Below are positions 39,504 through 43,268 of a DNA stretch of 64,000 bases, one piece after another. The stretch is taken from assembly GCA_001596155.1 (NCBI GenBank), contig CP014771.1, positions 930,001 to 994,000 of the forward strand, given 5' to 3'. The notes beneath the pieces were generated by a model, which saw only the letters and a list, made by a program, of their open reading frames with translations, was not told where the DNA came from and did no database searches. The position numbers and the translations under genes are program-made. The stretch's first letter is position 1. The number at the start of each line of letters is the position of its first letter. Source of the DNA: Hymenobacter psoromatis. GTDB lineage: Bacteria > Bacteroidota > Bacteroidia > Cytophagales > Hymenobacteraceae.

Positions 39504-39660
39504 GAGTGAAATATATTTAGTAATGAGTCGCCGTCCCAACCGGGTAGCGGGCAGCACAAAGGTCCGCCGCCCGGCCGCCGGCCGCGTTACACGAATTCCG
39601 GTTTGTGTGCCACAAATCGCGGAACCGGCCTGCTAAAACAGTTTGACCGCCCGGCGCGGG

Positions 39661-39785: not shown

Positions 39786-40754
39786 ATGCCCGCCCCTACC
39801 CCCCCGCCTGCCCTGCGCGTCGCGCACCTCACCAAGCGCTACGGCGCGCAGCTCATCCTGAACGATATAAGCTTTGAGGTGGCCGCGGGCGAAACCCTGG
39901 TGCTGCTCGGCCCCAGCGGCTGCGGCAAAACCACGCTGCTCAAAACCCTAAACCGCCTCATCGAGCCCGACGGCGGCACCATTGAAATCAACGGCCGCGA
40001 CGTGCGCCAGCAAGCGCCCGAGGCGCTGCGGCGCGGCATCGGCTACGTCATTCAGCAGGTGGGCTTGCTTCCTCATTACACGGTGGCCCAAAATGTGGGG
40101 GTAGTGCCCGGCCTGCTGGGCCGCCCGGCCGCCGAAACGGCCGCCCGCACCACCGAATTATTGGCGCGCCTGCACCTGCCGGCCGCCCGCTTTGCCCATA
40201 TGCTGCCGGCCCAGCTCTCGGGCGGGCAGGCCCAGCGCGTGGGGCTGGCCCGCGCCCTGGCCGCCGACCCGCCCGTGATTCTGCTCGATGAGCCCTTCGG
40301 CGCGCTCGACCCCCTCACGCGGGCCGCCGTGCGCCGCGACTTCCGCGAGCTGGATGAGCTGCGCCGCAAAACGATGGTGCTCGTGACCCACGACGTGCAG
40401 GAAGCCTTCGAGCTGGCCGACCGCATCATGCTACTTCACGAGGGGCGGATTCAGCAGCTGGGGCCGCCGCGCGAGTTGCTGCTGCGGCCCGCCAACGACT
40501 TCGTGCGCAGCTTCTTCCGGGCCGAGCGCCTGGCCTTGCAGCTGCGCGTAACCACGCTGGCCGAGGTAGCACCCTTCCTGGTTTTTGAGCAGGAGGGCGC
40601 GCCGCCCGGCACGCCTTCCCTACGCCCCACCGCCAGCGTGCAGGCGGCCATAGACCTGCTGGCCGCCACGCCCGCCGGGCGCTTTTGCCTGGCCGGCGCG
40701 CCGCAGCCGGTGGCGCTGGGGCCGCTGCTGGCGGCTTTCGGACAAGCGGTGTGA
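39786..40754 (+). CDS. Osmoprotectant-type ABC transporter ATP-binding protein
   Basis: A 322-residue ABC ATPase. ATG 39786 (MPAPTPPPALRVAHLTKRYG) is preferred; the open frame upstream runs through the hairpin repeat and is not protein-like. Walker A GPSGCGKTTLLKTL near 41, Q-loop VIQQVGLLPHYTV near 88, signature LSGGQAQRVGLARAL near 142, Walker B VILLDEPFGALDPLT near 163 and H-loop VLVTHDVQEAFEL. The C-terminal ~70 residues look like one degenerate CBS-type segment. By family and context it energises the OpuC-like permease encoded at 41697. Confidence 0.9.
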   Translation: MPAPTPPPALRVAHLTKRYGAQLILNDISFEVAAGETLVLLGPSGCGKTTLLKTLNRLIEPDGGTIEINGRDVRQQAPEALRRGIGYVIQQVGLLPHYTVAQNVGVVPGLLGRPAAETAARTTELLARLHLPAARFAHMLPAQLSGGQAQRVGLARALAADPPVILLDEPFGALDPLTRAAVRRDFRELDELRRKTMVLVTHDVQEAFELADRIMLLHEGRIQQLGPPRELLLRPANDFVRSFFRAERLALQLRVTTLAEVAPFLVFEQEGAPPGTPSLRPTASVQAAIDLLAATPAGRFCLAGAPQPVALGPLLAAFGQAV

Positions 40755-40904
40755 GGGAATCCGGAGTTAGGAATTTCAACAAGCCAGGACCTGCCTAAAC
40801 GGGATTTCGCGTACCGTGCGCAAGTCCTGCAAACGTGATTTTTCATTCCAGCCAAGGCGGCTCCGCACCGGAGCCAAGCCCCGAAAGCCCCGAACTTGCA
40901 GCCC

Positions 40905-41534
40905 ATGAAGCAGCTGATTGACCTGGCCACCTGGCCCCGCCGCGAACATTTCGAGTTTTTTTCCGCCTTTGAGGAGCCCTTTTTTGGCCTCGTGGCCGAG
41001 GTGGACTGCACCCACGCCCAGGCCGAGGCCAAGCGGCTGGGGGTGTCGTTCTTCCTCTACTACCTGCACCACGCGCTGCAGGCTGCCAACCAGGTCGAGG
41101 CCTTCCGCTACCGCATCGAGGCGGGGCAGGTGTACTGCTACGACCACGTGCACGCCTCGGCCACCATCGGGCGGCCCGACCACACGTTCAGCTTTTCCTT
41201 CCTCGAGCAGCACGCCGACCTGGCCGAGTTCGTGGCCGGGGCTGAGGTTGAAATCGCGGCCGTGCGCCAGACCAGCGGCCTGGGCCTGAGCGAACGCACC
41301 GGCCGGCCCGACGTCCTTCACTGCTCGGCCATTCCGTGGGTGCGCTTCACGGGCCTGACCCACGCCCGCAGCTTCCGGCACCCCGACAGCTGCCCCAAAA
41401 TCTCCTTTGGCCAGGTGTACCACGACGGTGCCGCCCGGCGCATGGCCGTGTCCGTCAACGTGCACCACGGCCTGGCCGATGGCTACCATGTGGGCCAGTT
41501 TCTGGACATTTTCCAGCAACGCCTTGGAGCGTAG
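40905..41534 (+). CDS. Chloramphenicol acetyltransferase (CatA-like) family protein
   Basis: A 209-residue CoA-dependent acyltransferase starting at ATG 40905 (a TTG lies three codons upstream in frame). The catalytic motif VNVHHGLADGYHVGQFLD near 185-200 keeps the HHxxxDG core of type A CATs. SFFLYYLHHALQAANQVEAF near 46 and CSAIPWVRFTGLTHAR near 140 also fit. The trimeric family includes chloramphenicol resistance enzymes and many housekeeping homologues with unknown acceptors. Its place between the two genes of one ABC transporter suggests a role linked to the transported solute rather than a mobile resistance cassette. The stop codon lies inside the first arm of the next hairpin repeat. 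Confidence 0.85.
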   Translation: MKQLIDLATWPRREHFEFFSAFEEPFFGLVAEVDCTHAQAEAKRLGVSFFLYYLHHALQAANQVEAFRYRIEAGQVYCYDHVHASATIGRPDHTFSFSFLEQHADLAEFVAGAEVEIAAVRQTSGLGLSERTGRPDVLHCSAIPWVRFTGLTHARSFRHPDSCPKISFGQVYHDGAARRMAVSVNVHHGLADGYHVGQFLDIFQQRLGA

Positions 41535-41696: not shown

Positions 41697-43268
41697 ATGC
41701 AGCTTCTTACCGAACTCTTCGCCTTCTGGCACGCGCAGGCCGGCAAGCTGGGCCAGCAAACCCTTCAGCACATCGCCCTCACGGCCGCCGCGCTGCTGCT
41801 GGGCGTGGCTGTGGGCGTGCCGGTGGGGCTGTGGCTCACGCGCCGGCCGCGCTACGCGCCGGCGGTGCTGGGGGCGGCGGGCATATTGCAAACCGTGCCC
41901 AGCATTGCGCTGCTAGGCTTTCTGATTCCGGTGATGGGCATTGGGGCCGCGCCGGCCATCCTGGCGCTGCTGCTGTACTCGCTGCTGCCCATTATTCGCA
42001 ACACGGTGGCCGGCATCCAGGGCGTGCCGCCGGCCGTGGTGGAGGCGGCTAAAGGGCTGGGCTTCACCGATGGCCAAATTCTGCGGCGGGTCGAATTGCC
42101 GCTGGCCCTACCCGTGCTCATGGCCGGCATCCGCACGGCTACGGTCATCAATGTGGGGGTGGCCACGCTGGCGGCCTACGTGGCGGCGGGCGGCCTGGGT
42201 GAGTTCATCTTCGGCGGCATCGCCCTCAATAACCCGGTGATGATACTGGCCGGGGCCATTCCGGCCGCCGGGCTGGCGCTGACGTTCGATTTTGGCCTGG
42301 GCTTCGTGGAGAAGCTTTCGGCGCGGCGGCTACGCCAGGTGGGCGGCGGGCTGCTGCTGGCCCTGCCCCTGCTGGCGGCCGGCTACTGGCTGCCGCAGGC
42401 CAGCGGGCGGCTGCGGGCGGGTTTCAGCCCCGAGTTTATCGGGCGGGCCGACTGCCTGCCGGGCCTCACCCAGGCCTACGGCCTCACGCATTTGCCCAAC
42501 GTGGTGCTGGCCCCGGCGCTCGTGTACGAGGCCGCCCGCAACGGCCACGTCGATGTCATCGACGGCTACTCGACCGATGGGCGCATCCGGGCCTATGGCC
42601 TGCGCGTGCTGCGCGACGACCGCCACGCCCTACCCCCCTACTTTGCCGCGCCCGTGCTGCGGCCCGCCCTGCTGCGCGCCCACCCCGAACTGGGGCCGGT
42701 GCTCGACCAGCTCAGCGGCCAGCTCTCTGATTCGGCCATGACCACCCTCAACTACCAGGTCGATTATCTGCACCGCGAGCCGAAAGAGGTGGCCCTGGCC
42801 TGGCTGCGCCGCAAGCACTTATGGAAGTCCCCGCGCCCCCTACCCCCCGGCGCGGCCACGGTGCGGCTGGGCTCCAAAATTTTTGCCGAGCAATATATTT
42901 TAGTAGAGATGTACGCCGCCCTCATTCGGGGTAATACGGACCTGGCGGTGACCACCAAAACCGGCCTGGGCGGCACCACCATTTGCTTCGAGGCCCTGCG
43001 CGGCGGGCAGATTGACATGTATCCCGAATATACGGGCACCGGCTTGCAGGTGCTTTTGCAGCCCTCGGCGGCGGTGCTCGACTCGCTGGGCGGCCGCCCG
43101 GCGGCGGTTTATCAGTATGTGCGTCAGCAGTTTGCGCGGCGCTACGGCCTGGAGTGGCGCGCGCCGCTGGGCTTCAACAATGCCTATTGCCTGCTCATGC
43201 GCCAGCGCCAGGCCAGGCAGCTGGGCATCGCCAGCATCTCGCAGTTGGGGCACTATTTAGAACGCTGA
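41697..43268 (+). CDS. Osmoprotectant ABC permease fused to a circularly permuted substrate-binding domain
   Basis: A 523-residue fusion. Residues ~15-215 are an OpuCB/OpuBB-type permease with five or six helices and the EAA-like loop VVEAAKGLGFTDGQILRRVE. Residues ~235-376 match the C-terminal half of OpuCC/OsmF-type binding proteins (GFSPEFIGRADCLPGLTQAY, VIDGYSTDGRIRAYGLRVL, YFAAPVLR, LNYQVDYLHREPKEVA). After a Pro-rich linker (WKSPRPLPPGAA), residues ~389-523 match the N-terminal half (VRLGSKIFAEQYILVEMY, LGGTTICFEAL, GQIDMYPEYTGTGLQVLL, LGFNNAYCLLMR). The halves are therefore in reverse order, as in a circular permutation. It should import a quaternary amine or similar solute together with the ATPase at 39786. 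Confidence 0.9.
   Translation: MQLLTELFAFWHAQAGKLGQQTLQHIALTAAALLLGVAVGVPVGLWLTRRPRYAPAVLGAAGILQTVPSIALLGFLIPVMGIGAAPAILALLLYSLLPIIRNTVAGIQGVPPAVVEAAKGLGFTDGQILRRVELPLALPVLMAGIRTATVINVGVATLAAYVAAGGLGEFIFGGIALNNPVMILAGAIPAAGLALTFDFGLGFVEKLSARRLRQVGGGLLLALPLLAAGYWLPQASGRLRAGFSPEFIGRADCLPGLTQAYGLTHLPNVVLAPALVYEAARNGHVDVIDGYSTDGRIRAYGLRVLRDDRHALPPYFAAPVLRPALLRAHPELGPVLDQLSGQLSDSAMTTLNYQVDYLHREPKEVALAWLRRKHLWKSPRPLPPGAATVRLGSKIFAEQYILVEMYAALIRGNTDLAVTTKTGLGGTTICFEALRGGQIDMYPEYTGTGLQVLLQPSAAVLDSLGGRPAAVYQYVRQQFARRYGLEWRAPLGFNNAYCLLMRQRQARQLGIASISQLGHYLER

Follow-up and report, generated by a model that had tools for sequence, protein, structure and literature searches.

Several described systems resemble the gene reported here. 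Archaeoglobus fulgidus ProX (AfProX; 1sw1, 3mam) and OpuCC/OpuBC are free substrate-binding proteins with the two halves of the binding domain in normal order; they belong to the same subfamily as the protein described here and share its cage residues. In the ergothioneine importer EgtUBC of Streptococcus pneumoniae, a permease is followed in one chain by a binding domain of the same subcluster F-III (AfProX/OpuCC/EgtUC) and the ATPase is separate, as reported (PMC9732360). The order in EgtUBC is T-N-C, where T denotes the permease module and N and C the halves of the binding domain. Lactococcus lactis OpuABC (7ahc, 3l6g) also carries a betaine-binding domain after the permease in a fused chain, in normal order and with a Trp-prism pocket. 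Bacillus subtilis OpuAC (2b4l, 2b4m), with a Trp-prism pocket as well, has a circularly permuted topology and is a free lipid-anchored protein, as stated in PMC2861598. The present gene is located in a 64,000-nucleotide stretch of the Hymenobacter psoromatis genome (contig CP014771.1, positions 930,001 to 994,000), referred to as the window. Its predicted product is a permease followed by the C half, a short linker and the N half of an AfProX/OpuCC/EgtUC-type quaternary-amine binding domain (T-C-N). B. subtilis OpuAC is a precedent for a permuted betaine-binding domain, which the initial annotation of the window did not mention.

The T-C-N open reading frame (ORF) is located at 41697-43268 on the forward strand, starts with ATG and encodes 523 amino acids. 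It is present as a single copy in the genome (5.45 Mb, 3 contigs). The parts of the gene are as follows.

41697..42335, forward strand: permease module T, residues 1-213; matched by Pfam BPD_transp_1 at residues 40-213 (E 2e-18) and helical in the full-length model
42321..42389, forward strand: last membrane helix, residues 209-231, running straight into the binding domain in the full-length model
42408..42821, forward strand: binding domain, C half (first in the chain), residues 238-375; Pfam OpuAC profile 114-256, EgtUC chain 133-276
42822..42860, forward strand: linker that bridges the former C- and N-terminus, residues 376-388; outside the Pfam and EgtUC matches beyond residue 377
42861..43265, forward strand: binding domain, N half (last in the chain), residues 389-523; Pfam OpuAC profile 1-113, EgtUC chain 10-132
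43266..43268, forward strand: stop codon

The initial annotation had proposed a permease fused to a circularly permuted binding domain, with the C half, a linker and the N half following each other. This was confirmed by Pfam, by alignment to EgtUC, by the predicted fold and by the conserved order described below. Two stretches of the protein were matched by the Pfam OpuAC family (PF04069; E 9e-54), and the stronger of the two matches pairs residues 238-371 with profile positions 114-256. In a profile search of the genome, profile positions 1-113 matched the downstream part of the gene (G000:C3:972855-973262), and both PF04069 matches in the genome were the two halves of this one gene (all four candidates were scored). 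EgtUC ranked first when the protein was compared with the sequences of the PDB by phmmer (E 1.2e-53), with residues 391-517 aligned to chain positions 10-132 and residues 233-377 to positions 133-276. AfProX was also matched (E 2.7e-39) and, like EgtUC, was aligned in two stretches. Homology to subcluster F-III was found for both halves by phmmer and by profile search. Because the two EgtUC matches tile chain positions 10-132 and 133-276, every segment of the domain is present once and only the order is swapped, as had been claimed. Each half matched normally ordered domains once, so that the N and C segments of a relative occur in exchanged order in one chain. The linker is WKSPRPLPPGAA (residues 376-387), as annotated. 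The protein does end where an ordinary domain would continue, six residues past residue 517 (SISQL), the point at which EgtUC enters its C half.

Structure prediction agreed with the alignments. Residues 234-523 closed as one bilobed fold in AlphaFold2 (50 sequences), with a predicted local distance difference test score (pLDDT) of 94.2 and a predicted template modelling score (pTM) of 0.90. In structure the whole model aligned to B. subtilis OpuAC end to end (model 3-286, 2b4m 9-272), and one half aligned to EgtUC. Two observations weigh against too strong a reading of the models. In the Foldseek comparison some normal-order chains also aligned over more than 300 columns, but with template modelling (TM) scores of about 0.4 and at 7.6-10 Å. 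The full-length model (49 sequences) was weaker, with pLDDT 86.3, pTM 0.75 and values below 50 at residues 164-178, and as a single chain it carries no information on a dimer. Since a homodimeric transporter is expected, the two halves might pair across chains, C of one with N of the other, in which case the covalent order would matter less. Such a domain-swapped dimer is very improbable, as the single chain closes with a pLDDT of 94 and the within-chain stretch joining the old termini (residues 375-391) has a median length of 14 residues.

The site of the permutation was located by numbering EgtUC chain position i as residue i+229, anchored on K242 at chain position 13. The cut falls between chain positions 132 and 133, i.e. 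residues 361 and 362. Lobe D1 of EgtUC comprises residues 233-331 and 445-506 and lobe D2 residues 341-432, as given in PMC9732360. The cut is thus inside D2, directly behind the SI-x-DL helix, and the C half begins in D2, at the new N-terminus of the binding domain. The old ends are joined by about 14 residues. The stretch 375-391 measured 12-27 amino acids in 302 of 306 relatives and 72-78 in the other four; such variation fits a join that is little constrained. In these four proteins (P0267, P0276, P0279, P0282; about residues 370-445) the grown linker is rich in Asn, Ser, His and Pro and repeat-like. Owing to the pseudo-symmetry of the fold, a valid type II binding fold is also obtained in the permuted form.

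It had further been suggested that the permutation would place the new N-terminus of the domain next to the membrane. Helix 209-231 does lead into the domain, whose first strand is at 241-243 in the full-length model, but this is not distinctive, because the N-terminus of a T-N-C domain also follows a membrane helix. The real change is the lobe that is tethered: because the cut lies in D2, the membrane helix runs into D2 in the permuted protein and into D1 in EgtUBC. The binding domain is probably periplasmic, judging from the basic stretch KLSARRLR before the last helix and from the relatives.

The T-C-N arrangement is real, widespread and conserved. Three protein searches, with the best 120 matches taken from each, gave 309 proteins including that of the window, and all 309 had C before N (306 T-C-N and three T-T-C-N). 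The order was also T-C-N in all 80 loci from named genome records, which were the best 80 of 577. Profiles of T, C and N were built from 14 sequences of alignment A1 and used to classify the ORFs of the fetched loci, many of which had been chosen for resemblance to the permuted protein; 110 were T-C-N, 27 N-C-T, 6 T-N-C, 4 only T and 3 only N-C. The protein and locus lists, drawn largely by such resemblance, favour the same order. A fairer sample was provided by 395 evenly drawn genomes of the phylum to which the window belongs, with usually no more than three candidates scored per genome. Any match was found in 177 of them, a full-length collinear match in 22 (the window's own included) and an N-C-T order by match coordinates in 31, verified by profile in 26. 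No genome had both T-C-N and N-C-T among the matches listed.

An assembly error or a decayed gene has a practically negligible probability, because the order is the same in the 80 named-record loci and the 309 listed proteins, the frame is intact and the pocket is conserved. An assembly artefact was refuted by this conserved order across loci and proteins. The normally ordered T-N-C and N-C-T relatives formed separate groups instead of pointing to a rearrangement of the assembly at this locus. Truncation was rejected as well, since C precedes N in all 309 listed proteins, and true circular permutation, as annotated, is supported by the sequence, the single bilobed model and the order in all listed proteins.

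The best-matching proteins among those listed were from Hymenobacter (90% identical). By source names, T-C-N proteins occur in Bacteroidota, Cyanobacteriota and metagenome-assembled genomes (MAGs) of other phyla. The first listing included Hymenobacter, Spirosoma and Fibrella, the second Flexithrix, Fulvivirgaceae, Geitlerinema and MAGs named KSB1, Aminicenantes, Scalinduaceae and Thermodesulfobacteriota, and the third Myxosarcina and Melainabacteria. Genome records added Chitinophaga, Mucilaginibacter, Pedobacter, Sphingobacterium, Dyadobacter and Chryseobacterium. Taxon labels of MAGs may be wrong; P0021 and P0025, for example, are Hymenobacter-like (83 and 80% identity) yet labelled as a Janthinobacterium lividum MAG, and are probably mislabelled. 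The three T-T-C-N proteins (P0102, P0127, P0133; 779-805 amino acids) carry two permease modules ahead of the permuted domain in one chain. The N-C-T fusions (L103-L110 and L129-L146 from the phylum of the window, and L122 from Gemmatirosa) have the binding domain first and in normal order. Those from the phylum of the window contain the same two modules, with mostly AfProX-type pocket letters, and stand apart from T-C-N in the binding-domain tree.

Most likely, the permutation arose once within the AfProX/OpuCC/EgtUC subfamily. In a tree of rotated binding domains built by the careful method, the T-C-N rows (34, from six or seven phylum labels) were on one side of a branch with moderate support, 86/82. 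Fifteen proteins had been added to this tree, 13 T-C-N and 11 N-C-T rows were left out for thinning, and the archaeal L125 rows were left out for their long branches. T-C-N was also on one side in an earlier tree (quick method, other rows). The T-C-N locus rows in both trees were representatives, 32 of 110 loci. A single origin is weakened by the support of only 25 in the earlier tree and, as a point against it, by the permease trees, since both the earlier and the later one need two changes for T-C-N. A single T-C-N clade was not rejected in the later permease tree (approximately unbiased test, p-AU 0.412), in which T-C-N, T-N-C and free T split from N-C-T with support 99/97. A usual route to permutation is that a domain is duplicated and its outer halves are then lost. 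None of the 309 listed proteins (best 120 per query) showed the duplicated intermediate (T-N-C-N-C), nor was a stand-alone permuted C-N protein of the subfamily seen among the matches listed for the 395 genomes (usually at most three candidates scored each); both are weak negatives.

The permuted C-N topology is shared with B. subtilis OpuAC, and the termini match end to end as described above. OpuAC and the T-C-N proteins could therefore descend from one permuted ancestor, with OpuAC later diverging into a free lipoprotein whose cage is made of Trp. Such a descent is unlikely. The window domain is only 12-13% identical to OpuAC, versus 32-45% to the unpermuted T-N-C, N-C-T and N-C domains (36 rows in all). 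B. subtilis OpuAC is in turn stated in PMC2861598 to be 44% identical to L. lactis OpuAC, the domain of which is unpermuted. By these identities each permutant has its own close unpermuted kin, and shared descent was rejected on them. Close kinship with OpuAC was not found in a profile search (A2) either: with E values up to 1, B. subtilis OpuAC was absent from the matches, while F-III chains were found and 3l6g and 7ahc only weakly (E 0.028 and 0.14). The T-C-N permutation thus apparently happened separately from that of B. subtilis OpuAC, at the same site, although this independence rests on identities and not on a tree holding both. The C-then-N order by sequence was also found in a Niallia OpuAC homologue. 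This B. subtilis-type OpuAC (L153:1135-1998, reverse strand) matches PF04069 in two swapped stretches, the Pfam family named OpuAC running in the opposite order.

The binding pocket was mapped through the EgtUC alignment, and its residues were counted in the 306 relatives, the three T-T-C-N proteins being left out. K394, T427, Y445, T448, E246 and Y315 were invariant, and F396 and R250 (305 of 306 each), N495 (304) and F493 (300) nearly so. Position 291 was Tyr in 159 and Phe in 143 (one of the two in 302). The five residues of an aromatic cage with an Asn base (Y445, Y315, N495, Y291 and Y497) are all present in the window protein. Three pocket positions set EgtU (G244, F293, Y337) apart from AfProX (F, Y, F), according to PMC9732360. 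They correspond to F396, Y445 and F493 of the window protein, and F, Y, F was found at all three in 299 of the 306 relatives. Given the AfProX-type pocket and the conserved cage residues, the ligand is predicted to be a small betaine such as glycine betaine or proline betaine. Some variation counts against a uniform pocket. Position 497 (EgtUC Y341) was Tyr in 248 of 306, with Phe in 21, Thr in 19, His in 10 and Trp in 4. Position 395 was variable (Asn 163, Ile 111). In other sets of rows, Ser replaced Y291 in 7 of 49 and Gln replaced F396 in 2 of 47. As pocket residues vary, notably at 497, ligands may differ within the T-C-N family.

EgtUC is the best sequence match in the PDB and EgtUBC is a fusion of the same type with a separate ATPase, so that the window protein could be an EgtU ortholog importing ergothioneine through a permuted domain. 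The pocket makes this highly unlikely: F, Y, F stands in place of G, F, Y in 299 of 306 relatives, whereas the EgtU-type G, F, Y is carried by four of the six T-N-C rows. The reading was rejected because the window protein has F396, Y445 and F493 at the places of G244, F293 and Y337, and it also does not have the T-N-C order of EgtU.

Two neighbouring genes upstream of the T-C-N gene were considered.

39786..40754, forward strand: ABC (ATP-binding cassette) ATPase, likely partner; Pfam ABC_tran E 1.8e-38; 322 amino acids from the ATG at 39786 (start inferred), the ORF as listed starting from TTG at 39603
40896-41534: chloramphenicol-acetyltransferase-like gene, between the ATPase and T-C-N genes

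The BPD_transp_1 permease domain and the adjacent ATPase gene mark the system as an ABC importer. In 77 of the 80 permuted loci an ATPase homologue precedes the T-C-N gene on the same strand, in 71 of them within 100 bp of the start of the T profile match. Of the three loci without a match, L026 and L033 hold less than 1 kb of upstream DNA and L069 holds 6 kb. The L. lactis ATPase has CBS domains, as noted in PMC2861598, whereas no CBS domain was detected by Pfam in the window ATPase at E 0.001. A homologue of the acetyltransferase-like gene flanked the transporter in just two of the 80 other loci (L002, L003), so the gene appears to have been inserted locally into the operon, and it was set aside as a part of the transport system.

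Taken together, the gene probably encodes a self-contained subunit of an importer that takes up glycine betaine or another small betaine like it, working as T-C-N chains with the ATPase, its domain having been permuted once and separately from OpuAC. Order, predicted fold, conservation, pocket residues and the ATPase neighbour are the observed parts of this explanation, to which we add by inference the ligand, the stoichiometry, the membrane orientation, the effect of the swapped tether and the independent origin. Two T-C-N chains and two ATPases from the upstream gene would most likely assemble into an importer in which two binding domains are tethered, by analogy to L. lactis OpuA, described as such in PMC2861598. 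The periplasmic domain would fold like an ordinary two-lobed binding protein and trap the trimethylammonium group between the lobes, in a Tyr/Phe cage built from both chain halves. It would then hand the betaine to the permease that tethers it, with D2 and not D1 hanging on the last membrane helix.

This kind of permutation event is already known, as is the fused layout in unpermuted form. In literature searches of open-licence papers, none of the titles and abstract openings listed described a permease that carries a permuted binding domain. As far as we have looked, the permuted domain fused to a permease and the repeat of the permutation at one site are new. Domain annotation gives both domains yet conceals the rearrangement, and in practice the order of PF04069 is opposite to that of B. 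subtilis-type OpuAC. With T-N-C, N-C-T and T-C-N fusions in one domain family, nature has already varied the lobe that is tethered to the transporter. The unpermuted relatives at 32-45% identity allow a test of whether the choice of lobe affects docking, and the repeated permutation of one fold at one predictable site is testable as well. The chances are about even that the T-C-N proteins constitute a widespread but so far unrecognised class of betaine importers, the permutation of OpuAC having been made in them a second time at the same place and the domain being hung by the opposite lobe (D2). The cut would then be a hot spot arising from the pseudo-symmetry of the fold, and the changed tether may alter docking and opening of the binding domain.
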